From Rhipicephalus microplus (lineage: Eukaryota; Arthropoda; Arachnida; Ixodida; Ixodidae), in contig NW_027464602.1 of NCBI RefSeq assembly GCF_043290135.1, positions 4,030,001 to 4,094,000 on the forward strand: DNA of 64,000 nucleotides, read 5' to 3'. This document shows, piece by piece, positions 1 through 61,580 of the stretch. The notes under the pieces were generated by a model. It saw only the letters and a program-made list of their open reading frames with translations. It searched no databases and was not told the DNA's origin. The translations under genes were made by a program, and so were the position numbers. Every line of letters begins with the position of its first letter. Positions within the stretch are counted from its first letter, which is position 1.

Positions 1-127
1 TCCAACCTTACGGTTAACAGCCGATCGCGCTAGCCCTTTGCGCCACGGAGACAGTCTTGCTCCCCTTCTCACCACCATCAGAACATAGCTTCAAAGCTAT
101 CAGCCCAAAGAGAAAAAAGCACCGCAC

Positions 128-201
128 CACCACCGGGTGGGCTCGAACCTCCAACCTTTCGGTTAACAGCCGATCGCGCTAGCCAATTGCGCCACAGAGA
201 C
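128..201 (-). pseudogene. Representative tRNA-Asn(GTT)-like monomer
   Basis: This copy keeps the 5' acceptor strand GTCTCTG that I know from metazoan tRNA-Asn. On the minus strand, bases 201 to 128 give 74 nt. The D arm and anticodon loop (CTGTTAA) are normal. The anticodon stem has an A-A mismatch at its outer pair. The T stem GGAGG/CCACC has one A-A mismatch. The acceptor 3' strand CGGTGGT pairs with GTCTCTG only through wobbles and mismatches. T6 at 113-118 lies ten bases downstream. No CCA is encoded, as expected for a eukaryotic gene. It is given as a type example; the remaining ~260 copies are covered by the block entries. Confidence 0.8.
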
Positions 202-2099
202 AGTCGTGCTCCACTCTCACCACCATCAGAACATATTTTCGAAGCTATCAGCGCAAAGAAAAAAGCAAAACACCACTCCCGGGAGGGCTCGAACCTCCAA
301 CTTTTCGGTTAACAGCCGATCGCGCTGGCCAAATGCGCCACGGAGAAAGTCCTGCTCAACTCTCACCACAATTAGAACATATCTTCAAAGCTATCAGCCC
401 AAAGAAAAAAAAGCGCCGCACCACCACCGGGTGGGCTCGAACCTCCAACTTTTCGGTTAACAGCCGATCGCGCTAGCCAATTGCGCCACGGGGACCGTCC
501 TGCTCCACTCTCACCACCGTCAGACCATTTCTTCAGAGCTATCACCCCAAAGAAAAAAAAAAGTTCCGCACCACCACCGGTTGGGCTAGAACCTCCAACC
601 TTTCGGTTAACAGCCGATCGCGCTAGCCAATGGCGCCACGAAGACAGTCCTGCTCCACTCTCACCACCATCAGAACATATCTTCAAAGCTATTACCGCAA
701 AGAAAAAGCAACACACCACTCCCGGGAGGGCTCAAAACTCCAACCTTTCGGTTAACAGCCGATCGCGCTAGCCCATTGCACCACGGAGACAGTCTTGCTC
801 CACTCTCACCACCATCAGAACATATCTCCAAAGCTATCATCGCAAAGAAAAAAGCAACACACCACTCCCGGGAGGGCTCGAAACTCCAACCTTTCGGTCA
901 ACAGCCGATCGCGCTAGCCAACTGCGCCACGGAGACAGTCGTGCTCCACTCTCACCACTATCAGAACATAACTTCAAAGCTATCAGCCCACAGAAAAAAA
1001 AGCGCCGCACCACCACCAGGAGAGCTCGAACCTCCAACTTTTCAGTTAACGGCCGATCGCGCTAGCCAATTGCGCCACGGAGACAGTCCTTCTCCACTCT
1101 CACCACCGTCAGAACATTTCTTCAAAGCTATCAGCCCAAAAAAAACAAGCGCTGCACCACCACCGGGTGGGCTCGAACCTCCAACCTTACGGTTAACAGC
1201 CGATCGCGCTAGCCAATTGCCCCACGGAGACAGTCGTGCTCCACTCTCACCATCGTCAGAACATTTCTTCAGAGCTATCACCCCAAAGAAAAAAAAAGCG
1301 CCACACCACCACCGGTTGGGCTCGAACCTCCAACCTTTCGGATAACAGCCGATCGCGCTAGCCAATTGCGCCACGAAGACTGTCCTGCTCCACTCTCACC
1401 ACCATCAGAACATATCTTCAAAGATATTACCGCAAAGAAAAAAGCAACACACCACTCCTGGGAGGGCTCGAGACTCCAACCTTTCGGTTAACAGCCGATC
1501 GCGCTAGCCCATTGCGCCACGGAGGCAGTCTTGCTCCACTCTCACAATCATCAAAACATATCTTCAAAGCTATCAGCGCAAAGAAAAAAAGCGCTGCACC
1601 ACCACCGCTTGGGCTCGAACCTCCAACCTTTCGGTTAACAGCCGATCGCGCTAGCCCATCGCGCCACGGAGACAGTCTTGCTCCACTCTCACCACCATCA
1701 GAACATATCTTCAAAGCTATCAGCGCAAAGAAAAAAGCAACACACCACTCCCGGAAGGGCTCGAAACTCCAACCTTTCGGTCAACAGCCGATCGTGCTAG
1801 CCCTTTGCGCCACGGAGACAGTCTTGCTCCCTTCTCACCACCATCAGAACATAACTTCAAAGCTATCAGCGCAAAGAAAAAAGCAAAACACCACTCCCGG
1901 GAGGGCTCGAACCTCCAACTTTTCGGTTAACAGCCGATCGCGCTGGCCAATTGCGCCACGGAGAAAGTCCTGCTCAACTCTCACCACAATTAGAACATAT
2001 CTTCAAAGCTATCAGCCCAAAGAAAAAAAAGCGCCGCACCACCACCGGGTGGGCTCGAACCTCCAACTTTTCAGTTAACAGCCGATCGCGCTAGCCAAT

Positions 2100-5000
2100 T
2101 GCGCCACGGGGACCGTCCTGCTCCACTCTCACCACCATCAGAACATAACTTCAAAGCTATCAGCCCAAAGAAAAAAAAGCGCCGCACCACTACCGGGTGG
2201 GCTCGAACCTCCAACTTTCCGGTTAACAGCCGATCACGCTAGCCAATTGCGCCACGGAGACAGTCCTGCTTCACTCTCACCACCGTCAGAACATTTCTTC
2301 AGAGCTATCAGCCCAAAGAAAAAAAAAGCGCTGCACCACCACCGGGTGGGCTCGAACCTCCAACCTTACGGTTAACAGGCGATCGCGCTGGCCAATTGCC
2401 CCACGGAGACAGTCGTGCTCCACTCTCACCATCGTCAGAACATTTCTTCAGAGCTATCACCCCAAAGAAAAAAAAAGCGCCGCACCACCACCGGTTGGGC
2501 TCGAACCTCCAACCTTTCGGTTAACAGCCGATCGCTAGCCAATTGCACCACGAAGACTGTCCTGCTCCACTCTCACCACCATCAGAACATATCTTCAAAG
2601 CTATTACCGCAAAGAAAAAAGCAACACACCACTCCTGGGGGGGCTCGAGACTCCAACCTTTCGGTTAACAGCCGATCGCGCAAGCCCATTGCGCCACGGA
2701 GGCAGTCTTGCTCCACTCTCACCATCATCAAAACATATCTTCATAGCTATCAGCGCAAAGAAAAAAAAGCGCTGCACCACCACCGGGTGGGCTCGAACCC
2801 CCCAACCTTTCGGTTAACAGCCGATCGCGCTAGCCCATTGCGTCACGAAGACAGTCTTGCTCCACTCTCACCACCATCAGAACATATCTTCAAAGCTATC
2901 AGCGCAAAAAAAAGCAGCACACCACTCCCGGTAGGGCTCGAAACTCCAACCTTTCGGTCAACAGCCGACCGCGCTAGCCCATTGCGCCACGGACACAGTC
3001 TTGCTCCCTTCTCACCACCATCAGAACATAACTTCAAAGCTATCAGCGCAAAGAAAAAAGCAAAACACCACTCCCGGGAGGGCTCGAACCTCCAACTTTT
3101 CGGTTAACAGCCGATCGCGCTGGCCAATTGCGCCACGGAGAAAGTCCTGCTCAACTCTCACCACAATTAGAACATATCTTCAAAGCTATCAGCCCAAAGA
3201 AAAAAAAGCGCCGCACCACCACCGGGTGGGCTCGAACCTCCAACTTTTCAGTTAACGGCCGATCGCGCTAGCCAATTGCGCCACGGGGACCGTCCTGCTC
3301 CACTCTCACCACCATCAGAACATAACTTCAAAGCTATCAGCCCAAAGAAAAAAAAGCGCCGCACCACTACCGGGTGGGCTCGAACCTCCAACTTTCCGGT
3401 TAACAGCCGATCACGCTAGCCAATTGCGCCACGGAGACAGTCCTGCTTCACTCTCACCACCGTCAGAACATTTCTTCAGAGCTATCAGCCCAAAGAAAAA
3501 AAAAGCGCTGCACCACCACCGGGTGGGCTCGAACCTCCAACCTTACGGTTAACAGGCGATCGCGCTGGCCAATTGCCCCACGGAGACAGTCGTGCTCCAC
3601 TCTCACCATCGTCAGAACATTTCTTCAGAGCTATCACCCCAAAGAAAAAAAAAGCGCCGCACCACCACCGATTGGGCTCGAACCTCCAACCTTTCGGTTA
3701 ACAGCCGATCGCGCTAGCCAATTGCACCACGAAGACTGTCCTGCTCCACTCTCACCACCATCAGAACATATCTTCAAAGCTATTACCGCAAAGAAAAAAG
3801 CAACACACCACTCCTGGGAGGGCTCGAGACTCCAACCTTTCGGTTAACAGCCGATCGCGCAAGCCCATTGCGCCACGGAGGCAGTCTTGCTCCACTCTCA
3901 CCATCATCAGAACATATCTTCAAAGCTATCAGCGCAAAGAAAAAAAAGCGCTGCACCACCACCGGGTGGGCTCGAACCCCCCAACCTTTCGGTTAACAGC
4001 CGATCGCGCTAGCCCATTGCGTCACGAAGACAGTCTTGCTCCACTCTCACCACCATCAGAACATATCTTCAAAGCTATCAGCGCAAAAAAAAGCAACACA
4101 CCACTCCCGGTAGGGCTCGAAACTCCAACCTTTCGGTCAACAGCCGACCGCGCTAGCCCATTGCGCCACGGACACAGTCTTGCTCCCTTCTCACCACCAT
4201 CAGAACATAACTTCAAAGCTATCAGCGCAAAGAAAAAAGCAAAACACCACTCCCGGGAGGGCTCGAACCTCCAACTTTTCGGTTAACAGCCGATCGCGCT
4301 GGCCAATTGCGCCACGGAGAAAGTCCTGCTCAACTCTCACCCAATTAAAACATATCTTCAAAGCTATCAGCCCAAAGAAAAAAAAGCGCCGCACCACCAC
4401 CGGGTGGGCTCGAACCTCCAACTTCTCAGTTAACAGCCGATCGCGCTAGCCAATTGCGCCACGGGGACCGTCCTGCTCCACTCTCACCACCATCAGAACA
4501 TAACTTCAAAGCTATCAGCCCAAAGAAAAAAAAGCGCCGCACCACTACCGGGTGGGCTCGAACCTCCAACTTTCCGGTTAACAGCCGATCACGCTAGCCA
4601 ATTGCGCCACGGAGACAGTCCTGCTTCACTCTCACCACCGTCAGAACATTTCTTCAGAGCTATCAGCCCAAAGAAAAAAAAGCGCTGCACCACCACCGGG
4701 TGGGCTCGAACCTCCAACCTTACGGTTAACAGGCGATCGCGCTGGCCAATTGCCCCACGGAGACAGTCGTGCTCCACTCTCACCATCGTCAGAACATTTC
4801 TTCAGAGCTATCACCCCAAAGAAAAAAAAGCGCCGCACCACCACCGGTTGGGCTCGAACCTCCAACCTTTCGGTTAACAGCCGATCGCGCTAGCCAATTG
4901 CACCACGAAGACTGTCCTGCTCCACTCTCACCACCATCAGAACATATCTTCAAAGCTATTACCGCAAAGAAAAAAGCAACACACGACTCCTGGGAGGGCT

Positions 5001-5484
5001 CGAGACTCCAACCTTTCGGTTAACAGCCGATCGCGCAAGCCCATTGCGCCACGGAGGCAGTCTTGCTCCACTCTCACCATCATCAGAACATATCTTCAAA
5101 GCTATCAGCGCAAAGAAAAAAAAGCGCTGCACCACTCCCGGTAGGGCTCGAAACTCCAACCTTTCGGTCAACAGCCGTCCGCGCTAGCCCATTGCGCCAC
5201 GGAGACAGTCTTGCTCCCTTCTCACCACCATCAGAACATAACTTCAAAGCTATCAGCGCAAAGAAAAAAGCAAAACACCACTCCCGGGAGGGCTCGAACC
5301 TCCAACTTTTCGGTTAACAGCCGATCGCGCTGGCCAATTGCGCCACGGAGAAAGTCCTGCTCAACTCTCACCACAATTAGAACATATCTTCAAAGCTATC
5401 AGCCCAAAGAAAAAAAGCGCCGCACCACCACCGGGTGGGCTTGAACCTCCAACTTTTCAGTTAACAGCCGATCGCGCTAGCCAA
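2100..5484 (-). repeat. Higher-order repeat of 8 monomers (1179 bp), three copies, third shortened
   Basis: The phrase at 2101 (gcgccacggggaccgtcctg) recurs at about 3280 and 4459 with the following monomers in the same order, giving a 1179-bp period. The next equivalent point is near 5485, so the third copy is about 1032 bp, one monomer short. The missing monomer is visible near 5,130, where a hybrid monomer joins an 'aaagcgctgcacc' start to an 'actcccggtagg' T arm. This is the pattern expected from unequal exchange between monomers. Confidence 0.75.
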
Positions 5485-8382
5485 TTGCGCCACGGGGACC
5501 GTCCGCCTCCACTCTCACCACAGTCAGACCATTTCTTTAGAGCTATCACTCCAAAGAAAAAAAAGCGCCGCACCACCACCGGGTGGGCTCGAACCTCCAA
5601 CCTTTCGGTTAACAGCCAATCGCGCTAGCCAATTGCCCCACGGAGACAGTCGTGCTCCACTCTCACCACCGTCAGAACATTTCTTCAGAGCTATCACCCC
5701 AAAGAAAAAAAAAAGCGCCACACCTCCACCGGTTGGGCTAGAACCTCCAACCTTTCGGTTAACAGCCGATCGCGCTAGCCAATTGCGCCACGAAGACAGT
5801 CCTGCTCCACTCTCACCACCATCAGAACTTATGTTCAAAGCTATTACCGCAAAGAAAAAAGCAGCACACCACTCCCGGGAGGGCTCGAAACTCCAACCTT
5901 TCGGTCAACAGCCGATCGCGCTAGCCCATTGCGCCACGGAGACAGTCTTGCTCATCTCTCACCACCATCAGAACATATCATCAAAGCTATCAGCCCAACG
6001 AAAAAAAACCACCGCACCACCACCGGGTGGGCTCGAACCTCCAACCTTTCGGTTAACAGCCAATCGCGCTAGCCAATTGCGCCACGGAGACAGTCCTGCT
6101 CCACTCTCACCACCATCATAACATATCTTCAAAGCTATCAGCCCAAAGAAAAAAAAGCACCGCACCACCACCGGGTGGGCTCGAACCTCCAACCTTTCGG
6201 TTAACAGCCGATCGCGCTAGCCAATTGCGCCACAGAGACAGTCGTGCTCCACTCTCACCACCATCAGAACATATCTTCAAAGCTATCAGCGCAAAGAAAA
6301 AAGCAAAACACCATTCCCAGGAGGGCTCGAACCTCCAACTTTCCGGTTAACAGCCGATCACGCTAGCCAATTGCGCCACGGAGACGGTCCTGCTCCACTC
6401 TCACCACCGTCAGAACATTTCTTCAGAGCTATCAGCCCAAAGAAAAAACAAGCGCTGCACCACCACCGGGTAGGCTCGAACCTCCAACCTTACGGTTAAC
6501 AGCCGATCGCGCTAGCCAACTGCGCCACGGAGACAGTCATGCTCCACTCTCACCATCATCAGAACATATCTTCAAAGCTATCAGCGCAAAGAAAAAAGCA
6601 ACACACCACTCCCGGGAGGGATCGAAACTCCAACCTTTCGGTTAACAGCCGATCGCGCTAGCCAATTGCGCCACAGAGACAGTCGAGCTCCACTCTCACC
6701 ACCATCAGAACATATCTTCAAAGCTATCAGCGCAAAGAAAAAAGCAAAACACCACTCCCGGGAGGGCTCGAACCTCCAAATTTTCGGTTAACAGCCGATC
6801 GCGCTGGCCAAATGCGCCACGGAGAAAGTCCTGCTCAACTTTCACCACAATTAGAACATATCTTCAAAGCTATCAGCCCAAAGAAAAAAAAGCGCCGCAC
6901 CACCACCGGGTGGGCTCGAACCTCCAACTTTTCGGTTAACAGCCGATCGCGCTAGCCAATTGCGCCACGGGGACCGTCCTGCTCCACTCTCACCACCGTC
7001 AGACCATTTCTTTAGAGCTATCACTCCAAAGAAAAAAAAGCGCCGCACCACCACCGGGTGGGCTCGAACCTCCAACCTTTCGGTTAACAGCCTATCGCGC
7101 TAGCCAATTGCCCCACGGAGACAGTCGTGCTCCACTCTCACCACCGTCAGAACATTTCTTCAGAGCTATCACCCCAAAGAAAAAAAAAGTTCCGCACCAC
7201 CACCGGTTGGGCTAGAACCTCCAACCTTTCGGTTAACAGCCGATCGCGCTAGCCAATGGCGCCACGAAGACAGTCCTGCTCCACTCTCACCACCATCAGA
7301 ACATATCTTCAAAGCTATTACCGCAAAGAAAAAAGCAACACACCACTCCCGGGAGGGCTCAAAACTCCAACCTTTCGGTTAACAGCCGATCGCGCTAGCC
7401 CATTGCACCACGGAGACAGTCTTGCTCCACTCTCACCACCATCAGAACATATCTCCAAAGCTATCATCGCAAAGAAAAAAGCAACACACCACTCCCGGGA
7501 GGGCTCGAAACTCCAACCTTTCGGTCAACAGCCGATCGCGCTAGCCAACTGCGCCACGGAGACAGTCGTGCTCCACTCTCACCACCATCAGAACATAACT
7601 TAAAAGCTATCAGCCCACAGAAAAAAAAGCGCCGCACCACCACCAGGAGAGCTCGAACCTCCAACTTTTCAGTTAACAGCCGATCGCGCTAGCCAATTGC
7701 GCCACGGAGACAGTCCTGCTCCACTCTCACCACCGTCAGAACATTTCTTCAGAGCTATCAGCCAAAAAAAAAAACAAGCGCTGCACCACCACCGGGTGGG
7801 CTCGAACCTCCAACCTTACGGTTAACAGCCGATCGCGCTAGCCAATTGCCCCACGGAGACAGTCGTGCTCCACTCTCACCATCGTCAGAACATTTCTTCA
7901 GAGCTATCACCCCAAAGAAAAAAAAAGCGCCACACCACCACCGGTTGGGCTCGAACCTCCAACCTTTCGGATAACAGCCGATCGCGCTAGCCAATTGCGC
8001 CACGAAGACTGTCCTGCTCCACTCTCACCACCATCAGAACATATCTTCAAAGATATTACCGCAAAGAAAAAAGCAACACACCACTCCTGGGAGGGCTCGA
8101 GACTCCAACCTTTCGGTTAACAGCCGATCGCGCTAGCCCATTGCGCCACGGAGGCAGTCTTGCTCCACTCTCACAATCATCAAAACATATCTTCAAAGCT
8201 ATCATTGCAAAGAAAAAAAGCGCTGCACCACCACCACTCGGGCTCGAACCTCCAACCTTTCGGTTAACAGCCGATCGCGCTAGCCCATCGCGCCACGGAG
8301 ACAGTCTTGCTCCACTCTCACCACCATCCGAACATATCTTCAAAGCTATCAGCGCTAAGAAAAAAGCAACACACCTCTCCCG

Positions 8383-9800
8383 TGTGATGGTTAAGGAGAC
8401 GTTCGTCACTATGTTTGTTGATAGCGGACGAGAAATCATTAACATGAACTTTTTATTTCATGGCATGGGTGGAACGGCTGCCGACGCACGGATACGCTAC
8501 CGTGTGCAGCGCCGTTGAGTCGGACGTCGCGGCCAACCCAGCAGTCAGGGTCGCAACTCCGGAGGTCCTGGATCAGGCCACGGCTCACGACGACCACACC
8601 CGGTAGGCCTCGTCCACGAACCTGCTCCCGGCCTCTGCACTCAGGCAGGAGCCGTTCGGCAGGTCTCGGCCTTGAACCTTGAACAGACACACCGGAGCTC
8701 GACCTGGCCGACACGTACGGGTCTCACGTCCGGCTCAGGAACGCTGCCAGGAACTCGTCCTCTCGAGCGGCACACCGTTTCGTCTGCCTTCGTGGCCTCA
8801 ACTCTCGAGCTGCAGTGGCGGAGATGCCTTGACCAGCGCGACCTCGGACCTCGTTTCCAAGCTTTTGATCACCTTCCGGGCGTAGCGGTTCCACGTGCGG
8901 GTTCTGGCCAGCACAGCACCGTCTGTGCCGTGCTGAAATGCTGCTCGCTACAGCTGCGGTGCGGCAGCTCACTCACCGGCGTTCGTCGCCTTGGCCAGGG
9001 CACAGCCAGGTACCCTCGGGTGCGCCCCTCGTGAGCTCGCGGCCCACTTCCGAGGCTGGTGCGTCGCTCGGTACGGCTCGGCACCGCTCGGCGATCCTCG
9101 ATTCAGCCAGCAACTCTCCTGGCATCTGAATTCTCGGCCACCCTGAACCTCGCCCGGCTCCATGGTCCTCCGTACACACGCCCGCGTCTCGCCCGGCAGA
9201 AAGTCTCACTCGTCCCTTGCCGAAGTGCGACGCTCTGGTGATACCGGCGCTTGATGGCGTGGGTGCGGCCACGGAGCAGTAAACCCGCATCGGAGACGCG
9301 ATGCTCCATGCGGGGCATGGCCAGCCCGTCCAGCGAAGAGCGTGCGCCGAGACGCATGCTCGACGCAACCGTGACCATTAGCCAGGCCACGTTCATCGCT
9401 GTGTCGAACGGCTGACCGTGGAGACGCCTCGCCGAGATCCGCGATGCCCTCGGCAAGGAAGAGAACAGCAGGCCAGGCCGTGCCCCGAGATGCAGTACTC
9501 GTGCCGGCAATGCCGCCCCAGCTGGTAGTTGGACGGCAGCAGCGTGGACGGCCGCGTTCCCTGGCCGGAACCTGGATCACCTGCGTCCGACGCTTCGGCC
9601 CGCTGTCTCCCGTCTGCCGCTGCTTCGGCTCGTCCCCAGCCACAAAGCCCACTGCCACGTGATGGTCGCCCGTGGCCCAATCGTGGCACGCCACCTTTAT
9701 GGGCCACCACAGGTCATCAGCTCATTCGCTGACACTCACGCGCACATTACAAGCGCCTTGCCCCGCACTTCCGGCGTTGTCGTTTTCTTCACTCATCACA
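8383..9800 (-). mobile_element. Solo LTR-like insertion, copy 1 (1418 bp)
   Basis: This is GC-rich DNA unlike the array. It starts TGTGATGG and ends CTCATCACA, so it has TG...CA ends within an inverted TGTGATG. It is flanked by a 4-bp direct repeat CCCG at 8379-8382 and 9801-9804, and an uninterrupted monomer such as the one near 1745 shows the empty site. On the minus strand an AATAAA (8452-8457) lies about 70 bases before the 3' end, where a poly(A) signal sits in an LTR. Short ends, a 4-bp duplication, absence of gag or pol and the poly(A) signal favour a solo LTR on the minus strand. A non-autonomous DNA transposon is the alternative. The many overlapping short ORFs inside have no recognisable motif. 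Confidence 0.7.
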
Positions 9801-12800: not shown

Positions 12801-12898
12801 CCATCGCGCCACGGAGACAGTCTTGCTCCACTCTCACCACCATCCGAACATATCTTCAAAGCTATCAGCGCTAAGAAAAAAGCAACACACCTCTCCCG
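9801..12898 (-). repeat. tRNA-Asn-derived tandem array, block B
   Basis: About 21 monomers of the same array, same orientation, between the two solo LTRs. The tandem-duplication junction at 10,350/10,351 lies inside this block. Two bases of the subfamily consensus vary near the edges, for example gattgtgct at 9841 against gatcgtgct at the equivalent point 14,357. Confidence 0.92.
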
Positions 12899-14316
12899 TG
12901 TGATGGTTAAGGAGACGTTCGTCACTATGTTTGTTGATAGCGGACGAGAAATCATTAACATGAACTTTTTATTTCATGGCATGGGTGGAACGGCTGCCGA
13001 CGCACGGATACGCTACCGTGTGCAGCGCCGTTGAGTCGGACGTCGCGGCCAACCCAGCAGTCAGGGTCGCAACTCCGGAGGTCCTGGATCAGGCCACGGC
13101 TCACGACGACCACACCCGGTAGGCCTCGTCCACGAACCTGCTCCCGGCCTCTGCACTCAGGCAGGAGCCGTTCGGCAGGTCTCGGCCTTGAACCTTGAAC
13201 AGACACACCGGAGCTCGACCTGGCCGACACGTACGGGTCTCACGTCCGGCTCAGGAACGCTGCCAGGAACTCGTCCTCTCGAGCGGCACACCGTTTCGTC
13301 TGCCTTCGTGGCCTCAACTCTCGAGCTGCAGTGGCGGAGATGCCTTGACCAGCGCGACCTCGGACCTCGTTTCCAAGCTTTTGATCACCTTCCGGGCGTA
13401 GCGGTTCCACGTGCGGGTTCTGGCCAGCACAGCACCGTCTGTGCCGTGCTGAAATGCTGCTCGCTACAGCTGCGGTGCGGCAGCTCACTCACCGGCGTTC
13501 GTCGCCTTGGCCAGGGCACAGCCAGGTACCCTCGGGTGCGCCCCTCGTGAGCTCGCGGCCCACTTCCGAGGCTGGTGCGTCGCTCGGTACGGCTCGGCAC
13601 CGCTCGGCGATCCTCGATTCAGCCAGCAACTCTCCTGGCATCTGAATTCTCGGCCACCCTGAACCTCGCCCGGCTCCATGGTCCTCCGTACACACGCCCG
13701 CGTCTCGCCCGGCAGAAAGTCTCACTCGTCCCTTGCCGAAGTGCGACGCTCTGGTGATACCGGCGCTTGATGGCGTGGGTGCGGCCACGGAGCAGTAAAC
13801 CCGCATCGGAGACGCGATGCTCCATGCGGGGCATGGCCAGCCCGTCCAGCGAAGAGCGTGCGCCGAGACGCATGCTCGACGCAACCGTGACCATTAGCCA
13901 GGCCACGTTCATCGCTGTGTCGAACGGCTGACCGTGGAGACGCCTCGCCGAGATCCGCGATGCCCTCGGCAAGGAAGAGAACAGCAGGCCAGGCCGTGCC
14001 CCGAGATGCAGTACTCGTGCCGGCAATGCCGCCCCAGCTGGTAGTTGGACGGCAGCAGCGTGGACGGCCGCGTTCCCTGGCCGGAACCTGGATCACCTGC
14101 GTCCGACGCTTCGGCCCGCTGTCTCCCGTCTGCCGCTGCTTCGGCTCGTCCCCAGCCACAAAGCCCACTGCCACGTGATGGTCGTCCGTGGCCCAATCGT
14201 GGCACGCCACCTTTATGGGCCACCACAGGTCATCAGCTCATTCGCTGACACTCACGCGCACATTACAAGCGCCTTGCCCCGCACTTCCGGCGTTGTCGTT
14301 TTCTTCACTCATCACA
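12899..14316 (-). mobile_element. Solo LTR-like insertion, copy 2 (1418 bp)
   Basis: Same length and ends as the copy at 8383-9800 and the same CCCG target duplication (12895-12898 and 14317-14320). Comparing the translations of both copies in several frames shows one base change, C at 9669 against T at 14,185. The identical insertion point means this copy arose by duplication of the surrounding array and not by a second insertion. The minus-strand AATAAA equivalent is at 12968-12973. Confidence 0.7.
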
Positions 14317-40673: not shown

Positions 40674-40697
40674 TGAAGATAATGCCAAGTAAGTGTT

Positions 40698-45424: not shown

Positions 45425-45470
45425 GACAGCAGGTAGAGTCCGGCTTCGCAACTCCAGGATTGCAAGGAGA

Positions 45471-45487: not shown

Positions 45488-45489
45488 AT

Positions 45490-45648: not shown

Positions 45649-45652
45649 GTAT

Positions 45653-46255: not shown

Positions 46256-46258
46256 TTT

Positions 46259-50303: not shown

Positions 50304-50413
50304 GACTGTGGAGGCTGTAGGGCTGCTTAGGAATGGTGGAATCCCTGGACATGTGTTCAACCTTGCTGCATCAGCTCCTTGGTGTTTTCACGGCATCTTT
50401 ACAGATGTGTTGG
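50304..50413 (+). other. Candidate internal exon (110 bp)
   Basis: A pyrimidine-rich tract and ATGGTTGCAG end at 50,303, and TTGG|GTGAGT follows at 50,413/50,414, a good acceptor and donor pair. Two frames are open throughout: one contains ATG with a reasonable context (AGGAATGG) at 50,333, and the other reads through from the acceptor. Neither translation resembles a family that I recognise. It is only a candidate, since such pairs also occur by chance in long AT-rich DNA. Confidence 0.3.
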
Positions 50414-52690
50414 GTGAGTAAAGCAAGCAGGTTTCAACACAAGAAAAAGTATAATATGGCAGCACCTCTTGTGCATGCCTTACATCCCAAGTATATCAAA
50501 TATTTATCTTGCACCTTGTGGCCTGTAATTTTTAAAGAGACACTTCTTTTTGCTTTATATTTGAGTCTTGATGCTTCGACAGCAATGTATTTGTGTTTGA
50601 CAGCAAGTGTTCTTGAACAAATAACTGATCTCAATAATGACAACACACCCTTCAAACTTGGTCCTTAGCATAAGCTAGCACATACCTGTAGCAGATTCAA
50701 TTATTCATTTTTTGCTGGGATGATAATGGGAAAGTAGCAAAGGCAAGTTCAGATTGGAGTGGTCGGTGACGTCTGTTTAGGCTCTGCCATATTGCTTTGC
50801 AACCAGAGTTACTTGTGGCCACATATACAATGAAGCCACATGACGTGCATTCTAAATGAGATTACCATATCACATTTCGCTGCATCTCAATGTGTGCCAA
50901 ACAAATGCAGATATCATTAGCTTGCCACTATAAAGGGATACTAAACCAACACAAGGTTGAAATTTAGTCGTGGTGTTGCAGCTGTGTATGACTCTACAAT
51001 GGATGCATAGCCGTGATAATTTGTCTATATGTTGTCGCAATAGTAATGTTACACACATTGTACGATACAAAAGAGGTCCTCGCTTATTTCGCTTTTTTTC
51101 GCAATGCTTCTTGTCTCTTCTTGCCATGTGCTCCTCCTCACTGTACAAGGAGCAAGAGTAGTGGGCACACAAACACGTATTTAAAAAAAAATGTTGTAAG
51201 GTGAGCACTGAGAAGCTGAACACTTCCGAAAGGCTCAAAGAGGTAAAGGTATTGTTTCTAGCTACTTTTTGGGCACCCACAGCTAGTTGTGCTGCTGCAG
51301 TTAAAAAATGAGTTAAATGTTAAAAATTAATTGGAGGTGGTTTGGCACCCATAATTGCAGTTACATACAGAACTAGGTTTCAATGCGTAAGCAAAATCTG
51401 TTCACTCTAAATCAATCCTAATGATATCTGAAATTCAGGAAATATTCACAGAAAAGCTCAGGAAAAGGCTAAGTGGTTGCCCCTTGAACGTGAAGGAGAT
51501 ACCCTTCTTCTAAAAGGTCAATAGACCGTCTAGTAGTCTCGATATTACATGCACTGTAAAATATTCTGGTGTGGTGCTTTTCATGCATGTTATAATGAGA
51601 GGGGTTTTTAACAGAACTGTTGTAACTTTGCCTTGCGTTGCTAAAATTTGTTCACATAGTTATAATACATGAATCACTTTATGCCTTTTGATTTTATGCA
51701 AATGGTTTGCTTACCCAGTCGGTTTAACTTGATTTGGATAAAAACATAAATGCTCGAAACTTTTTTTTATTATACAGCAGGTTTATTTTTAAAATACGCG
51801 ACCATTGATGTGAACACAGTTGGTGGCGTGCTTGATTAATCCTTCACTATCACCACTCTAACTACACCTGCTACAGTGCATAGTGTGACAAAAGTAATGG
51901 TACTTAACATTACTGGCAGCATACTTTTATGTCTCAAAATGTGTTAAAAAGCCTGGTAAAAGTGTGTGTACGTTTTTTTTTTTCGCTCCAACTAAATATT
52001 CTGGTCTACTCAAAATAGCTTCCGCTCTTTTAAGGTCCTCAATCTATTAGGTGTTCAAAAGAAGTATCAATGCCATATGCTTTTTTTGTCAGCCTACTCA
52101 CAACTCTAATAATGAGAATTACCCGACAACATTACCCAGTAAAATATAGGGATGTTATAAAAAGTAATGTCAATTCAATTGTCAAGAAACTTTGCGAAGT
52201 TACATTTTTGTTCACTTTTCTTTTCATAATTTTGTTAAAGTTACTTTTGATAACATCCCCTACAATTTGTTTGGCATCATTTTCTACTAGTTCTCATTAT
52301 AATGTGTTCAACAAAGACAACAAACCCTTAAATTTATAGTTCTTTCCTTTACTCATGAATCTGAAACAGTGAATCTCAGTAATCTTAGCGGTGTGTGACT
52401 TGTTTTTTTTTTTTTTTTGATCAGTTGTGCATGTGTTCAAGTACATGCATTTAGGTGGGAGGGTGAACCATTGCCACCTCCTGTGACTAGCAGATTTTCC
52501 GAGAACTGACAGATGCATAATGCTGCCAAAGAAGTATAGGGATATTGGAAGTAATCGTAACGTAATTGCAATCGTAATGTTATTGCCAGTAGGCAAAAAA
52601 AAGGTGTGCCACACTTGCCATAATGGTAACAAGCAGCGCTGACTGACTCTTCCATGTATAAATGCACATATATACCGTACAAAATGGAAG
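50414..52690. other. AT-rich DNA, nothing recognised
   Basis: AT-rich sequence with homopolymer runs, including a T16 stretch at about 52,404-52,419. ORFs are short and unsupported. Confidence 0.45.
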
Positions 52691-52696
52691 AGGGAT

Positions 52697-52828
52697 AGCC
52701 GCCATGGTAGCTCAGTTGATAGAGCATCGGACATGTTATTCGAAGTTCGCAGGCTCGGTCCCTGTACAGGGCAGGTTATCTTTTTTCCTTCTACTTTTCT
52801 TTCTTCACAATTACAACACTTCTATTCT
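52697..52828 (+). repeat. tRNA-derived SINE of a type I recall from ixodid ticks
   Basis: A plus-strand tRNA-like head has the A box TAGCTCAGTTGATAGAGC (from 52,708) and the B box GGCTCGGTCCC (near 52,752). The tail is gttatctttttt followed by pyrimidine-rich cttctacttttctttcttc. This head-plus-tail layout matches, from memory, a SINE common in hard-tick sequences. The head differs from the array's tRNA-Asn, so the two are unrelated in origin. Confidence 0.7.
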
Positions 52829-52830
52829 TC

Positions 52831-53365
52831 TTGAAGACTTTCTGGTGTAAAAAAGGTACCTTATAATCTGAAGAGGCAAACAGAATGTGCCAGTGCACGA
52901 GTTAGCTGTTGTAGTGGTTACAAGTAAGATATGTTTTGAAGAATAAATCATTCTGCCACTTGCCTAAAAAATGGCTACAGGACATGGCACTGGATGCACT
53001 TTGTTATTTTTGAATCAAGCTATCTTGTATTCTATTTTTATAAATTACATGGGATACACATGACGGTATCACACACTTTAATGCCACAAAGATTATGCAG
53101 CGAACAATGTTATAAATGCGAAATTGCATAAGGATAAGGTGAAAACTGCACCCTCAACGAGAATGTACAGGGAGCACAGGGTGCAGGCGTCATTCCTTCT
53201 GCACGTGCTTTTCAAGTGCGAGCTGTTTTCTCCTCGTTCTGACCAACTAACTAAATTGAGATGTGTTGTTATAGTGCAAGAAGATGCTCCACGGGAAACT
53301 AGGTTTGTCTCAAACTCTGTGTGTGTCTTTCAATCTATATGGTGCCCGGTTCAAGAGTTCATGCA
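52831..53365. other. AT-rich DNA, nothing recognised
   Basis: Follows the SINE tail. Short ORFs only (one of 102 codons begins at 53,124), with no motif, and compositional features do not suggest coding. Confidence 0.45.
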
Positions 53366-53369
53366 GACC

Positions 53370-53458
53370 AGATCGTGTAAAATAGGACCGTGTAAAATGG
53401 GCCGTGTAAATAAAATAAAATGGACCATGTAAATAAACAGGATCGTGTAAAATGTCGT
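53370..53458 (+). repeat. Short degenerate minisatellite
   Basis: Imperfect repeats of about 14-18 bases built on ga(c/t)cgtgtaaaat: gatcgtgtaaaatag, gaccgtgtaaaatgg, gccgtgtaaataaa, gaccatgtaaataaa, gatcgtgtaaaatg. At least five copies. Confidence 0.65.
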
Positions 53459-54842
53459 TTTCGTGTGCAACTGTAGTTGTGGTTGTGCTGAATGACCTTT
53501 CTTTATATACACTACATAACAAACTTGCTCCTTTAGAGTCGAGTGCATCTTCGGATCGATTGTAAATGTTTGCATATGCGAGGCCTTAAGTTTTATAAGA
53601 AATTGCTCAGTGTGCCACGAGGAAATGTGGGTTCAGCGAAAATTTGCATATCATTATATACAACTCTTAAAGCCTTGTCTACAACTTTGGGCAGGTTGAC
53701 TTTGAGCAGAAAACGAGGAGCACCAGCAGCCCCCAAAAAAGAGCAAGCACCCTCCAAGCTCCCGAAGCTCTCTTCGACAGGAACATCATGGTCACTGTGT
53801 GGCATTGAAAGCCATTGCAAGGAGTGCCTTATCAGTACACTGTGCTGCTCTTTCATCGCAGAAGACGAAGTTGACCACTCTAGAGGAACTTCATGCTGTG
53901 TATTGTGAGTGCTTCAGTGGTTTTGTTTTTGTCCAGCCAGCAGTTAAGAAATCATGTGTCAGATTTAGCCGGGATGGCTAGAGGGAGTCGGGCAGGCATG
54001 TTTGGACATTTGTCTAGCCAATTTTCGCACTGGTCCTGTTGGAGTTACTGCCACAATCACAGAAGCTACGTAACCTCTCTAAATGTACAGATGTGTCGGG
54101 GAAGATTAGCTGCATTAGGTTTTTCTATAACTGATAGCTGCCAGCATTCTTCATTATATAGGAGTTTTGTTCCTTACTTATGGGTGTAAAGTCCTCCACA
54201 GAAAAAATGCAACACGTCTACTTCCAGAAGGCTCCAAGGCCCTACTTGTAGGTTTTTTCGGCTTGTATCGTAAGCACCTTGTTTGGGTGTACATGAACAT
54301 TTTATAAACATGTACAGCGAAAAATTTGGGTGGCCGGTCGTTTTGTTGTTATCATGTTCCTCGCAGTATTCTTAAGCATGTTGTGCATTACGTTGTCAAT
54401 CTGGTTCATGTGCATAGAAGATATTACGAAGTTTTAGGCTACAGTATAAAAAGCCTGGAAGCAAGCTATCAATAATTTTTTAACAGAGTTGCTTAATCTC
54501 ATACATGATACATCACTAAACTTTCGTGGGTATTCATCAATGTAAGCTCGTCTTAGTGTTATCCAAAATGAAGATGTGAGTCGACAGATGGAAACATCTA
54601 GTAATCAGGGTGAACAGTGGAAGTGCCTCAGACAGGCTGGCCGATGTTGCGATAGGAGGACCTAATTTTTAGAAGTCACATTGTCATCCTTGGCGTGTTA
54701 GTTTAAATAAGGTCAGTAATGACATCATCTTTTGCTGTAGGCGTGTGTGCCTGTTGGAAATGTTTGTCTGAGAAAAAAAATACCTATAACGCAGAAGAGT
54801 GCAGCCCTTGCTTCTTTTCAAGTTAGGTTGCGCTGATACAAA
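53459..54842. other. Unassigned DNA with a weak exon-like ORF
   Basis: At 53,710-53,910 two plus-strand frames are open; one encodes a basic stretch (RKRGAPAAPKKE) and the other a Gln/Lys/Ser-rich one. A weak acceptor (tttgggcag at 53,696) and a donor-like ATT|GTGAGT (53,904) bracket it. I recognise no family. The rest of the interval is AT-rich and featureless. Confidence 0.25.
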
Positions 54843-54904
54843 GTGGTCTCTCCTCCAAAGGGAAGCAAAAAAAAGATAAATGATAGAAAAGAAGAAAAAA
54901 GAAG

Positions 54905-54976
54905 AAAGAAAAGGGGGATGCAAAGTAAAAGTAGTGCTACACTGCTCCTACTTTGCATCCCCCTTTTCTTCTTTTT
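54905..54976. other. Perfect 21-bp inverted repeat (hairpin) in purine/pyrimidine tracts
   Basis: The sequence agaaaagggggatgcaaagt is followed after about 25 bases by its reverse complement, actttgcatcccccttttct. It sits between an A/G-rich tract (54,885-54,915) and a T/C-rich tract (54,960-55,015), so the fold-back extends imperfectly outward. No microRNA-like context can be shown from sequence alone. Confidence 0.75.
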
Positions 54977-55346
54977 TTTTCTCTTGTTTTCTTTTTTCAC
55001 CTTTTTTGTTACATTTGCATTGTCCCATCTAGTGCATGAATCAATGACACATGGCTTTGCTATAGCAAAGATGCTTATGAAGTGTTGGATTGAACAGTGC
55101 ATTGTACTTCATTCAGTTAATTACAGACTGATCAGTCTTGCAATAAGTGCTTCCTGTCTATCACCACACATGTTCAAATGAAAAGTTTGTGCTTGGCTCT
55201 TAGTATGCTGGTATATAGCTTGTGTCTTGGACTACTCAAAATGAATGTTGTTTTGCTGCTGTTTATGGTAATGAATTTATCCAACATGAAAATATCTTGC
55301 CTTGCGAACTTTGTCGGACCTGCCTTTCTTTTTCTTTCCTATGCAG
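54977..55346. other. AT-rich DNA, nothing recognised
   Basis: Pyrimidine-rich at its right end, where it forms the strong acceptor tract before 55,347. No gene or repeat is recognised. Confidence 0.45.
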
Positions 55347-55430
55347 GCATTGTATGTGAGGGAGGCAGTAACAGAGAAGGGATAGCTTGAGCTTCGGAAG
55401 AATAAATGCTGGCAGTGAAGCAATTACACA
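55347..55430 (+). other. Candidate terminal exon with poly(A) signal
   Basis: A strong acceptor (ctttctttttctttcctatgcag region, ending at 55,346) is followed by a 12-codon open frame ending TAG at 55,383-55,385, and by AATAAA at 55,401-55,406. It would suit the 3' end of a short spliced transcript. Without RNA evidence it remains a pattern only. Confidence 0.25.
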
Positions 55431-57282
55431 TCAAACATCCCAGCCATTTTGCCAACCGTACTAAATGTGTTTTGAAAAAAAAATGTGCTCGGTTACTGTA
55501 TTAAAAACAGCAAAATGCTAAAATATATCGCAGAGAACAAAATATTAGGCCACGTTGGTGCCTTCTGGACTTCCCAGGTTGTCGTCTGGGTGTTGTTTGT
55601 AAAAAGTAAAAAGTGTTTCAAAAATACTGCCTTTTTACACCAAATTCGGTCTAGGTATTAAGTAAAGGTGATTGTGTGTAGTGCATGAAGCTCAGTAATA
55701 TTAGTGCAATTTTTTTGCCACATCAAAAGCAAGGAAGCAGTTCTTTTTATATGGCAAGTTATATGATTACACTTTGTCTTAAAGTAGAAATGAATTTTTG
55801 AAGTTTTCTTATGAAGGCTGTTCTCTGCATTTGATATACGACAGCTTCCGTTCCGAAGTTCTCCATGGCCCTCAATAGGAGACTTCAAAAATCATTTTCC
55901 TTATTTAAACAAAAATTGTAATGATAACACTTGCCATGTAACAAGAACTGTTTATTTGCTTTCAACTTACACATAAAAGTAATTTTCAATTAGACAAACA
56001 CACAGCTCAAGTTGCATCTCAATGTGGACAAAAACGATTATATAGTGATATTTGTAATCTGGACCTAACATTATTTTTTTTCGTGAAATATAACTTCTGT
56101 GCAGTGAGTATTTGTGGCTCAAATATTCATACAAAGTGCAGTATTGCCATACAAGAAATGCAAACGATAAACAGTTTGGCTGAATTCTTCAAAGCCTATG
56201 TAGCGGAAAAATTGCACTAATGTTACTCGACTTCAAATACTTTAAGAAGCACCTTTACTTAATATGTAGATCAAATTTGATATGGCAAGAAAAAGCGGTA
56301 CTTCGAAATTTTTCTCACAAATAACACCCGCACGACATTCTGCGAAATTCTGATGGTACCCACGTGACCACTACTTTTTTCTCTTCAAAACATTTCTGCA
56401 AATAGCTATTTTCAGGAGAGTAAATTACCATCATTTTTTAAACTATACATCTGTGATGGTCGCCAGGCAGTATGGTTTGTATGTTTGGTGTAGAATAGCC
56501 CAGTGCGAAAAACAACAAATGTCTGAGCATCCTTTGACGCTCGGGCAATTTCGAAAGCATTTGTTTGTTAGCAGCAATTCAGTTAAGCCCTTGTCTTTAT
56601 GCTTAGGCCCAGAAACAAAACACAAGTAACCAAAGTAGTCCTAAGAGTCATGCAGTCTCGCTGTTCCAAGGCTTGTGGAGCCTAATTTAGTGCAAGCTTC
56701 ACCATGTTTTAAAAATTCAGATTCAACCAACAGGTTTTGGAGGCACAGTGCATTTTCAGCTAACTTGTTTCACACCAGTTACTTTGATAAAAAGCGGGAA
56801 GTAGAGGTAAAAATACCATTTTAAAGGCATTGTAGATAATAACAAAACGGACTGCTTTCTTTTTTTGTGTGGTGCTTTGCCTGAACGCTGTGCTTTTTGT
56901 GGTATAGTTCATTGTCTAGTGAACAGAGGCCTTAAAAACTAACATTAGCCATGTTGAGGTCGATTTCCTGGTTATAGTCATAGTAGCCATATTAAAAATA
57001 TATGACTTCAAACTTGATTGTTCTTTTGAAGATGTTTTCTTGCATAATGATATTTCAGAGTCTTAGTCAATTTTGTTATAAGAAAACGTGATGTCATAAT
57101 AGGGTCACTTTTTGTAGGGTCGTTCAGTTCTACCTTACCTTTTATATTCCTAATAGAGCAGTTATTTTCAATATTGGTATTTAAAATGGAATGAGCATGC
57201 TGTATGTAGTAAGGTGTAAGCACTTACAGATAGCACATGCACACAACTTTTCTGTTGGCAGTTTATTTCTGTTATTCTTGAT
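55431..57282. other. AT-rich DNA, nothing recognised
   Basis: AT-rich sequence on both strands with only short unsupported ORFs, no repeats that I can name and no RNA gene signals. Confidence 0.45.
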
Positions 57283-57285
57283 TTA

Positions 57286-57474
57286 TATGTGGGGTTTCAC
57301 GTCCGAAAACTACGATATGATTATGAGAGACGCCGTAGTGGAGGGCACTGGAAACTTCGACCACTTGGGGTTCTTTAACGTACACCCAAATCAGCACACG
57401 TGCCCACAGCATTTCTGCCTCCATCGGAAATGGAGCCGGGGTTTGATACCGCGACATGCGGGTCAGCAGCTGAA
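57286..57474 (-). repeat. Ixodid-type SINE fragment (Ruka-like), head truncated
   Basis: The plus strand contains the phrases ggggtttcacgtccgaaaac, gagagacgccgtagtggagg, gaccacttggggttctttaa and gcctccatcggaaatg. I recognise these as the body of a SINE very common in hard-tick genomes and transcripts. The element reads on the minus strand. Its B-box region (GGTATCAAACC) is mutated, and the A-box end stops at about 57,474 instead of continuing, so the tRNA head is truncated. The name Ruka-like is from memory. Confidence 0.75.
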
Positions 57475-58025
57475 TTTCTTTTACTCTTGCTCCCCTATAT
57501 GTGTGCAGTTCGGTTATAGTTATCTGGCTTCCACAGATGTTTGATTTCACCTGCCTGGTCCTGCTTGCTTTCATGGTGATTTTAACCTTCATAACTTGCA
57601 TAGGTTTAACTCTCAAAATTGTTCAAGATGCCAATTTTGTGCACAAACTCTATAGTGTAAAGGCAGCAGATGTACATGCACACACTATTAAATGTACATT
57701 GAGAGATTTCACTTGCAGTTCATAAAGTTTTACTGTGCAGGAAGCATTTAAATCATAAATTTATACGGACATATTAATCGATTATCTCTACCATTGAAAA
57801 GCGTGACAACCTAGTTGTTTTCACTGTGGTAAGCATGCTTTTTTCTTTGATGTGGCAGAACTAATTTATACACTCATTCCTTCTATTATTCACATATGCA
57901 TAACTTGAAGGATTGTGTGCCTTACATTTTCAGTTTCATTCTGTGTGTTATATTTCTTGTGCATGTGAACTAATGTGCTAACATGTGTCTCTGACATTAT
58001 TTGTGCCAATTATTTTCATTTCCAG
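57475..58025. other. AT-rich DNA, nothing recognised
   Basis: No supported gene. The right end is pyrimidine-rich (aattattttcatttccag) and forms a candidate splice acceptor at 58,025. Confidence 0.45.
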
Positions 58026-58355
58026 GTGCCTATGAAGGACACATAAGTTCTATGGCAGTGACCTTCCAAATTTACAGTGGTGCCGGAGCCTCAAGCAGCA
58101 TTTCGCCGATCTCCACAAGGCGTTCATGATACAAACACAGCGCCACACTTTCACAGTGCTATGATTATTATTTATGTTTAAACATTTCGTTCTAAAATTG
58201 CTGTTACATTGTGTTTTGTGCCACCATACTGTGGCTTAGGTGGAGCACGTGAAATTACGGTGTAGTCACCTCATTTGTGTACCATCAACACTGCAATGTC
58301 ACCATTCACAGCTGGAGCATACAGACAAATAAAAAAATATATTGATTGTAGCAGG
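58026..58355 (+). other. Candidate terminal exon with poly(A) signal and GT-rich downstream element
   Basis: The acceptor attttcatttccag ends at 58,025. AATAAA stands at 58,328-58,333, followed within 30 bases by GT-rich ctggtgtgtat, the usual layout of a metazoan cleavage and polyadenylation site. One frame is open for about 33 codons from the acceptor and encodes nothing that I recognise. It may be a 3' UTR or non-coding exon of the transcript that starts near 47.4 kb; that link is speculative. Confidence 0.3.
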
Positions 58356-58813
58356 GCTGGTGTGTATAATAATGCTTCTCTATTGATAATAATAACTTTA
58401 TAAGTTCTTTAGGTCTTGCATAGAACACTGCATTAATGTGTTGCAATGTAACCACCATTTGTGATCGCTAGCATGTTAATTTAGTAGTTTTGTAATGTAT
58501 TTTATTTGAAAGGTAATTTTGCTTCCGCATCACGACAATTAGAAAGATGCCGATAATTCAATTCCTCATTAGGTAGCTTCTTAACACATTTGTTTCTTTC
58601 AAGCCTTTGTTTACTCATCAAGGCTGTTTCAGATAGCAAACATATTTCACCTTCATGCAACAGATTAAGAATGAAATATTCATATATATTTATACACAGT
58701 ACTTGCTTTTGCAAACAATGTGAATGGCCAATTGCTTTTACTCGAGATCTAGGATGTCCATTTGATCTTTGCAAGATGAAGCAGATAGCTGCATAGTTTC
58801 TGCATTATGCTAA
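58356..58813. other. AT-rich DNA, nothing recognised
   Basis: No gene, RNA or named repeat. It ends where the right subterminal repeats of the 20-kb element begin. Confidence 0.45.
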
Positions 58814-59050
58814 TTTCCGTAAGCTGCTTATCGGGTAATTTAGCATGATATGGCACCTTCCGTAAGCTGCGGATGTCCGCAACTTTCTGCACGATGTGGC
58901 GCTTTCCGTAAGCTGCGGATGTCCGCATCTTTTCGCATGATATGGCGCTTTCCGTAGGCTGCGCATGTTCGTATCTTTCCGCATGATGCGGCTTTCCGTA
59001 GTCCAATAATTGCGTATGTACGGATTCGTATATGCGGAACGTTTCAGTAG
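58814..59050 (-). repeat. Right terminal inverted repeat with 45-bp subterminal tandem repeats
   Basis: ttccgta(a/g)gctgcg with gatgtccgcat and (g/a)atgatatggc recurs with a 45-bp period at about 58,859, 58,904, 58,949 and 58,994; a diverged copy begins at 58,814. The 19-bp terminal repeat closes the element at 59,050. The tacggaaa core, on the minus strand, is shared with the left-end repeats, although the units differ in length. Confidence 0.7.
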
Positions 59051-61580
59051 ACTCTCACCACCGTCAGACCATTTCTTCAGAGCTATCACCCCAAAGAAAA
59101 AAAAAGCGCCGCACCACCACCGGGTGGGCTCGAACCTCCAACCATTCGGTTAACAGCCGATCGCGCTGGCCAATTGCGCCACGGAGAAAGTCCTGCTCAA
59201 CTCTCATCACCATCAGAACATATCTTCAAAGCTATCATCGCAAAGAAAAAAGCAACACAGCACTCCCGGGAGGGCTCGAACCTCCAACTTTTCGGTTAAC
59301 AGCCGATCGCGCTGGCAAAGCGCCACGGAGACAGTCCTGCTCCACTCTCACCACAATTAGAACATATCTTCAAAGCTATCAGCCCAAAGAAAAAACAAGC
59401 GCCACACCACCACCGGGTGGGCTCGAACCTCCAACTTTTCGGTTAACAGCCGATCGCGGTAGCCAATTGCGACATGGGGACCGTCCTGCTCCACTCTCAC
59501 CACCATCAGAACATTTCTTCAGAGATATCACCCCAAAGAAAAAAAAAGCGCCGCACCACCACCGGTTGGGCTAGAACCTCCAACCTTTCGGCTAACAGCC
59601 GATCGCGCTAGCCAATTGCGCCACGAAGACAGTCCTGCTCTACTCTCACCGCCATCAGAACATATCTTCAAAGCTATTACCGCAAAGAAAAAAGCAACAC
59701 ACCACTCCCGGGAGGGCTCAAAACTCCAACCTTTCGGTTAACAGCCAATCGAGCTAGCCCAATGCGCCACGGAGACAGTCTTGCTCCACTCTCACCACCA
59801 TCAGAACATATCTTCAAAGCTATCATCGCAAAGAAAAAAGCAACACAGCACTCCCGAGAGGGCTCGAAACTCCAACCTTTCGGTCAACAGCCGATCGCGC
59901 TAGCCCATTGCGCCACGGAGACAGTCTTGTTCATCTCTCACCACCATCAGAACATATCATCAAAGCTATCAGCCCAAAGAAAAAAAAAAGCACCGCACCA
60001 TTAACGGGTGGGCTCGAACCTCCAACTTTTCGCTTAACAGCCGATCGCGCTGGCATTGCGCCACGGAGACAGTCCTGCTCCACTCTCACCACAATTAGAA
60101 CATATCTTCAAAGCTATCAGCCCAAAGAAAAAAAAGCGCCGCACCACCACTTGTGGGCTCGAACCTCCAACCTTTCGGTTAACAGCAGATCGCGCTAGCC
60201 AATTGCGCCACGGAGACAATCGTGCTCCACTCTCACCACCATCAGAACATATCTTCAAAGCTATCAGCGCAAAGAAAAAAAAGCGCCACACCACCAACGG
60301 GTGGGCTCGAACCTCCAACTTTTCGGTTAACAGCCGATCGCGCTGGCCAATTGCGCCACGGAGACAGTCCTGCTCCACTCTCACCACAATTAGAACATAT
60401 CTTCAAAGCTATCAGCCCAAAGAAAAAAAAGCACCGCACCACCACTTGTGGGCTGGAACCTCCAAAATTTCGGTTAACAGCAGATCGCGCTAGCCAATTG
60501 CGCCACGGAGACAATCGTGCTCCACTCTCACCACCATCAGAACATATCTTCAAAGCTATCAGCGCAAAGAAAAAAAAGCGCCGCACCACCACCAGGTGGG
60601 CTCGAACCTCCAACCTTTCGGTTAACAGCCGATCGCGCAAGCCAATTTCGCCACGGAGACAGTCCTGCTCTACTCTCACCACCATCAGAACATATCTTCA
60701 AAGGTATCAGCCCAAAGAAAAAAAAGCGCCGCACCACCACTTGGTGGGCTCGAACCTCCGACTTTTCGGTTAACAGCCGATCGCGCTAGCCAATTGCGCC
60801 ACGGAGACAGTCCTGCTCCACTCTCACCACCGTCAGAACATTTTTTCAGAGCTAGCAGCCCAAAGAAAAAAAAGCGCTGCACCACCACCGGGTGGGCTCG
60901 AACCTCCAACATTACGGTTAACAGCCGATCGCGCTAGCCAATTGCCCCACGGAGACAGTCGTGCTCCACTTTCACCATCGTCAGAACATTTCTTCAGAGC
61001 TATCACCCCAAAGAAAAAAAAAGCGCCGCACCACCACCGATTGGGCTCGAACCTCCAACCTTTCGGTTAACAGCCGATCGCGCTAGCCAATTGTGCCACG
61101 AAGACTGTCCTGCTGCACTCTCAACACCATCAGAACATATCTTCAAAGCTATTACCGCAAAGAAAAAAGCAACACACCACTCCTGGGAGGGCTCGAGACT
61201 CCAACCTTTCGGTTAACAGCCGATCGCGCTAGCCCATTGCGCCACGGGGACAGTCTTGCTCCACTCTCACCACCATCAGAACATATCTTCAAAGCTATCA
61301 GCGCAAAGAAAAAAGCAACACACCACTCCCGGGAGGGCTCGAAACTCCAACCTTTCGATCAACAGCCGATCGCGCTAGCCCATTGCGCCACGGAGACAGT
61401 CTTGCTCCCTTCTCACCACCATCAGAACATAACTTCAAAGCTATCAGCCCAAAGAAAAAAAAGCACCAAACCACCACCGGGTGGGCTCGAACCTCCAACT
61501 TTTCGGCTAACAGCCGATCGCGCTGGCCAATTGCGCCACGGAGACAGTCCTGCTCCACTCTCACCACAATTAGAACATAT
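59051..61580 (-). repeat. tRNA-Asn-derived tandem array, block D
   Basis: About 17 monomers, same orientation as the rest. It restarts mid-monomer at the right edge of the 20-kb insertion. From about 59,620 to 61,580 it matches 29,700-31,670 at a constant 29,918-bp offset, including private variants (cattaacgggtggg, accacttgtgggc, gctagcagccc). The stretch 59,051-59,480 repeats monomers found at 29,257-29,720 in a rearranged order. The block is cut at 61,580 by the second Gypsy element. Confidence 0.92.

Follow-up and report, generated by a model that had tools for sequence, protein, structure and literature searches.

The window analysed here, a stretch of 64,000 nucleotides of Rhipicephalus microplus DNA (positions 4030001-4094000 of the 6.808-Mb contig NW_027464602.1, hereafter C29, in an assembly of 3.26 Gb and 1,202 contigs), lies within a head-to-tail array of ~147-bp units in which a stretch resembling transfer RNA (tRNA) for asparagine alternates with a spacer. 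Very probably, this repeat is a major satellite that derives from a copy of a tRNA-Asn(GUU) gene and that spread by the duplication of blocks of units. The part of it within the window is a small piece of a much larger satellite than could be seen in an earlier note on this sequence.

Extent of the array

A search of the window with nhmmer identified 260 complete and six partial units, every one on the minus strand, and no unit outside the array on either strand. The start-to-start distance between units is 144-150 bp, mostly 146-149, and Tandem Repeats Finder (TRF) reports a period of 148 at 1-39009 and 59051-61580. About 260 tandem units in one orientation and some 38 kb of repeat had been proposed in the earlier note, and both estimates hold, the array segments summing to about 38.7 kb. 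Its placing of the array across the whole of 1-61580 requires correction, as the units are interrupted by two 1,418-bp copies of a solo long terminal repeat (LTR) and by an insertion of 20,041 bp. Given a mean pairwise identity of 0.884 over the 260 units, chance is not in question. Adjacent units are 0.880 identical, no more alike than random pairs, and the array extends beyond both edges of the window.

Within the 264 kb around and including the window there are 1,555 matches to the unit, on a single strand. Of 20 five-kb samples taken along C29, 15 contain units, all on the minus strand, from the sample starting at base 1, which holds two, to the furthest at 5.2 Mb; no units were found in the samples at 2.4, 3.85, 5.7, 6.2 and 6.8 Mb. 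A total of 364 kb of C29 sequence yielded 1,972 complete units, every one of them on the minus strand, which represent 1,267 distinct sequences. A 33-base core of the tRNA part, GGCTGTTAACCGAAAGGTTGGAGGTTCGAGCCC, has 72,776 exact copies in the genome (31,167 forward and 41,609 reverse), as compared with none for the reversed sequence, and the first 100 places listed lie on C1 and C2, in addition to the copies on C29. Long head-to-tail arrays of similar units and a high copy number at several loci, which are among the features by which satellite DNA is recognised, are both found. Since the C29 sequence sampled holds 336 exact cores per 1,972 complete units, the genome would contain about 427,000 units, corresponding to ~63 Mb or ~1.9% of the assembly, if the other arrays are alike, an extrapolation from one contig. 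Exact searches with unit patterns gave no matches in collections of viral contigs and genome contigs, from which near relatives may have been left out.

At the start of C29 (sample 1-5000) the array has a junction at about position 233, beyond which lie a poly-T tract and non-array DNA resembling a non-LTR element inserted with its poly(A) tail. Near the far end of the contig, degenerate CCTAA tracts are present on the plus strand, with 214 copies in 6200001-6205000 and 133 in 6803001-6808000, the latter embedded in another complex tandem repeat. This is the wrong direction for a simple telomere there and a subtelomeric place is therefore not established.

Anatomy of the unit and its likeness to tRNA-Asn

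Read on the minus strand, the window consensus consists of a ~73-base tRNA-Asn-like stretch, about 10 bases, a T-run and a ~55-base spacer. When compared with an animal tRNA-Asn sequence, the consensus matches at 65 of 74 bases and at 61 of the first 66. ARAGORN predicts 163 tRNAs in the window, 162 of them Asn-GTT and one Tyr-GTA, and 1,181 in the 364 kb of C29, where 1,133 are Asn-GTT and all lie on one strand. The GTT anticodon itself is present in 259/260 window units and in 1,914 of the 1,972 units. Covariance models from Rfam gave 192 matches at the gathering threshold in the window, with a top score of 47.8 bits, and 571 in 120 kb of neighbouring or sampled C29 sequence, where the top match (56.2 bits) is a unit with a GAU anticodon. 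The 150 listed of the 192 and the 150 listed of the 571 are all tRNA, so that among the listed matches none falls in another RNA class, and the derivation of the units from tRNA-Asn that the earlier note had put forward is upheld.

An A box, a T loop and a downstream T-run had also been ascribed to every unit inspected. This is borne out for the T-run, but the boxes are less uniform: among the 260 window units a run of at least four T follows the tRNA part in 259, a strict A box is found in 165, a strict B box in 156 and all three in 85. The corresponding counts for the 1,972 units, where the run of at least four T had to lie no more than ~30 bases beyond the tRNA part, are 1,962 for the T-run, 1,405 for the strict A box, 1,140 for the strict B box and 776 for all three. 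Judged from these motifs, transcription of some units by RNA polymerase III (Pol III) would be permitted.

Although the GTT anticodon expected of a functional tRNA-Asn gene is retained, the fully paired cloverleaf is not. The pair 27-43 is unformed in 1,963/1,972 units and at least two of the 20 tRNA pairs are broken in 1,972/1,972 (gaps counted as broken), and the units are therefore not ordinary tRNAs. Neither RNAalifold (7 pairs) nor the minimum free energy structures of the two consensus types recovered the cloverleaf, a result that is uninformative as the minimum free energy structure of the true tRNA did not recover it either. A variant of the core that shares T at position 51 with the animal tRNA-Asn has 349 copies genome-wide compared with 72,776 for the satellite core. 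Among the 100 places listed for it, several on C9 and C12 are clustered at multiples of ~147 bp and, from this spacing, probably sit in arrays; dispersed copies may be real tRNA genes. Two main types of unit differ at tRNA positions 63, 69 and 70, and a distinct palindrome, CTCCCGGGAG or CCACCCGGTGG, can be seen by eye in each of them within positions 61-71.

Spread of the array and competing explanations

In the window, 209/260 units belong to blocks of at least five units that have a copy of at least 98.5% identity elsewhere in the window, whereas no such blocks were obtained in 50 shuffles of the unit order. In the 264 kb, 1,300/1,548 units belong to duplicated blocks of at least eight units, and the blocks reach 43 units. 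The second solo LTR of the window was copied together with its array block. These block copies and the solo LTR duplicated with them support the unequal exchange proposed in the earlier note, and fit a spread by block duplication of varying size, through unequal exchange or a similar process and not through retroposition of single units. Pairwise identity among the 1,972 units is flat with distance, at 0.890 within 500 bp, 0.888-0.894 between and 0.891 at 2-5.3 Mb. A fixed higher-order period was rejected, given that the listed block lags range from 8 to 122 units (16-122 in the 264 kb, with 8 and 9 in the window), as was a dimeric unit corresponding to a TRF period of 294, given that identity at lag 2 (0.878) is not above that at lag 1 (0.880).

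Very probably, a copy of a tRNA-Asn(GUU) gene that included the 3' terminator of the gene and some 60 bp of flanking sequence lost its proper fold and became the ~147-bp repeat unit. Blocks as large as tens of units would then have been duplicated again and again, through unequal exchange or a similar process, extending the array along the contig in a single orientation, and transposons that had inserted into the array would have been copied along with the blocks.

An origin from a tRNA gene plus its 3' flank is favoured by the T-run, which lies a short way beyond the tRNA part; a downstream T-run is typical of a tRNA gene and is not expected on the head of a short interspersed element (SINE). 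Nevertheless, a SINE may have seeded the satellite, its head giving the tRNA part and its body the remainder of the unit, with tandem multiplication as in squamates. The heads of SINEs lose their tRNA likeness in the 3' acceptor half, and the likeness of the tick unit weakens there as well, so that the tRNA part may be a SINE head. Furthermore, the accessible text of PMC10702118 describes satellites of squamates, their units 67 to 215 nt long, some of which include parts of a SINE head, and that of PMC3160391 describes a tRNA-like SINE of ticks, Ruka. However, Ruka is described there as tRNA-Ser-like, no dispersed copy of the unit is present elsewhere within the window, and the T-run, in 1,962/1,972 units, would, as it does in a real tRNA gene, terminate transcription by Pol III ahead of the supposed body. 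A SINE origin is therefore considered unlikely. Given the retention of GTT in 1,914/1,972 units, the 1,181 tRNAs (1,133 Asn-GTT) predicted by ARAGORN in 364 kb and the strict A box, B box and T-run kept together in 776/1,972 units, it could also be proposed that this is a giant array of working tRNA-Asn genes serving translation, like the arrays of Phytophthora infestans. This is extremely improbable in view of the broken pairs in all 1,972 units, the top Rfam scores of 47.8 bits in the window and 56.2 bits in 120 kb, the latter for a GAU anticodon, and the 349 canonical-like T51 cores against 72,776. Most likely the units are not working tRNA genes and have no role in translation, and this candidate was rejected on the broken pairs in every unit examined.

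Whether the tRNA part has been kept by selection was weighed from its variation. Diversity is 0.109 in the tRNA half and in the spacer half of the 1,972 units (0.107 and 0.123, respectively, in the window). Of the recent differences, counted between nearest neighbours, 76 fall within the tRNA half and 84 within the remainder of the unit (p 0.81), private variants number 34 and 44, respectively (p 0.43), and tree-counted changes per column are slightly higher in the tRNA half (19.8 vs 17.0). There is no covariation of tRNA pairs beyond that in shuffles (1 double-change pair vs 2.9), and the 80.6% of cells that are paired, compared with 34-46% when the pairing is slid, are expected from tRNA descent alone. 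Several observations weigh against a repeat free of constraint. Pair-keeping stem changes are above expectation in the tree counts of the window (ratio 2.1, 95% interval 1.3-4.8, for non-CpG columns and allele presence), and among the 1,267 distinct units the tree-counted ratio is 1.83 (1.00-3.09) for non-CpG columns and 1.57 (0.91-2.93) for all columns; an excess of this kind would be compatible with selection on the fold, whether past or current. In addition, no other triplet in the window is as conserved as the anticodon (259/260), which ranks 11/144 in the 1,972-unit sample, and carriers of rare alleles number 8.8 per column in the tRNA part as against 11.4 in the spacer. However, the rare alleles of the 1,972 units are opposite in direction for the stems, with 2 pair-keeping changes seen and 9.3 expected. 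Taken together, these results do not prove constraint on the tRNA part.

The persistence of boxes and terminators in many units, together with the excess of pair-keeping changes in the tree counts and the T-run and anticodon-loop columns being among the least variable regions, raises the possibility that selection maintains the Pol III and TFIIIC boxes, whether for the insulation of chromatin, for chromosome-end or centromere structure, or for a non-coding RNA. This is improbable, given that the tRNA and spacer halves are equal in diversity and recent change, that 832/1,972 units have no strict B box and that the stem signal is not robust. A broader proposal is that a tick tRNA-Asn gene became a main satellite whose internal Pol III promoters, numbering in the hundreds of thousands, would be bound or read, the arrays acting as a genome-wide TFIIIC sink, an insulator or a source of tRNA-like small RNA, with the fold under weak selection; this is regarded as quite doubtful. 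Long satellites are also error-prone in assembly, and a short array might have been falsely expanded or be chimeric. An artefact of this kind has very little likelihood given the 1,267 distinct sequences among 1,972 units, the transposons inside units with 4-bp target duplications, and the cores on other contigs (C1 and C2 among the first 100 places listed, and C9 and C12 for the T51 core).

Related repeats and inserted elements

The satellite is closest to the tRNA-containing satellites of amphibians and squamates, the comparisons made here being drawn from the accessible portions of the papers cited. PolIII/TAN of the newt Cynops, Rana/polIII and Xenopus OAX are tandem repeats containing tRNA sequence, and PolIII/TAN can be transcribed in vitro (PMC10702118). 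As in the PolIII/TAN type, a shared tRNA-like sequence lies inside each tandem unit of the tick satellite, but the amphibian units are ~360 nt (PolIII/TAN), ~250 nt (Rana/polIII) or longer (OAX), whereas the tick unit is ~147 bp and half of it is a nearly full-length tRNA-Asn. Satellites derived from SINEs are described from squamates (PMC10702118) and, as PcH-sat, from limpets (PMC11121367). These are likewise short and some include part of a tRNA-related head, but they have an identified parent SINE and the tick satellite does not. Mean unit similarities of gecko satellites are 63-86% (PMC10702118), and PcH-sat is described as having no boxes A and B (PMC11121367). Arrays of tRNA genes are described from Entamoeba (PMC2652664), Phytophthora infestans (PMC9584435), where there are 271 tRNA-Cys copies in a 513-nt unit, Hydractinia (PMC11067881) and human 1q23.3 (PMC4041453), and are surveyed in PMC2888827. 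Those of the Entamoeba and Phytophthora type likewise consist of tandem tRNA-containing units, but are described as tRNA genes, the accessible text on Entamoeba (PMC2652664) reporting no clear pseudogenes, whereas every tick unit examined is decayed and none is an intact gene. The copies of the tick satellite, unlike those of tRNA gene arrays, reach tens of thousands or more.

A ~149-bp subtelomeric repeat of the cattle tick, RMR-1, was reportedly described by Hill et al. in 2009 and may be the same family, the two being compared by unit length and host group only. ISR-2 of Ixodes scapularis (~7% of the genome) is likewise an abundant tick satellite, but it differs in its 95-99-bp unit and no tRNA likeness is stated in the accessible text of PMC4748124. 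A tRNA-derived tick satellite was not found described among the papers listed in the literature searches, mostly ones available without subscription, and the accessible portions of PMC7417564, PMC2893602 and PMC10561763 contain nothing on one. The existence of the tick satellite is confirmed and its size is unusual, although satellites of this kind are already known from other animals. It would be a very large animal case of a tRNA gene turned into satellite DNA, in which the tRNA part is nearly full length and many units retain a recognisable promoter and terminator, and could be used for asking whether Pol III factors meet satellite chromatin. A single satellite of this sort can inflate tRNA counts by orders of magnitude in this genome and perhaps in those of relatives. 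Open frames of up to 280 amino acids cross several units (e.g. 28835-29677), and frames through the array may be annotated as spurious proteins.

The array segments and the elements that interrupt them are given in Table 1.

Table 1. Array segments and inserted elements in the 64-kb window.
Positions	Strand	Feature	Evidence
1..8382	-	Satellite array of ~147-bp tRNA-Asn-like units, continuing leftward	TRF, nhmmer, flanking sequence
128..201	-	Example tRNA-Asn-like part of one unit, GTT anticodon	ARAGORN, Rfam
8383..9800		1,418-bp solo LTR (TGTGATGG...CATCACA), 4-bp target duplication CCCG	
9801..12898	-	Satellite array	nhmmer
12899..14316		Second copy of the 1,418-bp solo LTR, 1 difference, identical flanks, shift 4,516 bp	
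14317..39009	-	Satellite array	TRF, nhmmer
39010..59050		20,041-bp insertion; its 19-bp inverted ends (17/19, 89%) coincide exactly with the array junctions	
40499..45652	-	Nested Ty3/gypsy element within the 20-kb insertion, with gag and pol domains; ~165-bp LTRs 99.4% alike	
59051..61580	-	Satellite array resumes; 98.5% similar to 29138-31662	TRF
61581..64000	-	Ty3/gypsy element of 5.36 kb, left part; the element ends at ~66935 (window numbering)	

The inverted ends of the 20,041-bp insertion begin CTACTGAAA, and at its site 6 bp (TGCTCC) of the unit are lost and there is no target duplication. Tandem repeats rich in TACGGAAA/TTTCCGTA motifs are found near both ends (39094-39401 and 58843-58987). 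A Pfam scan of the two open reading frames of the insertion that lie outside the gypsy element gave no match, and the insertion is possibly an undescribed large DNA transposon. In the 5.36-kb Ty3/gypsy element at 61581 the 173-bp LTRs are identical and the duplication is 4 bp (ATAT). Within the 20-kb insertion, tRNA-like stretches with T-runs at 46261-46340 (minus strand) and 52700-52790 (plus strand) are SINE-like by eye and received no ARAGORN call, and the sequence at 57285-57460 resembles an interspersed repeat that is highly abundant in hard ticks.

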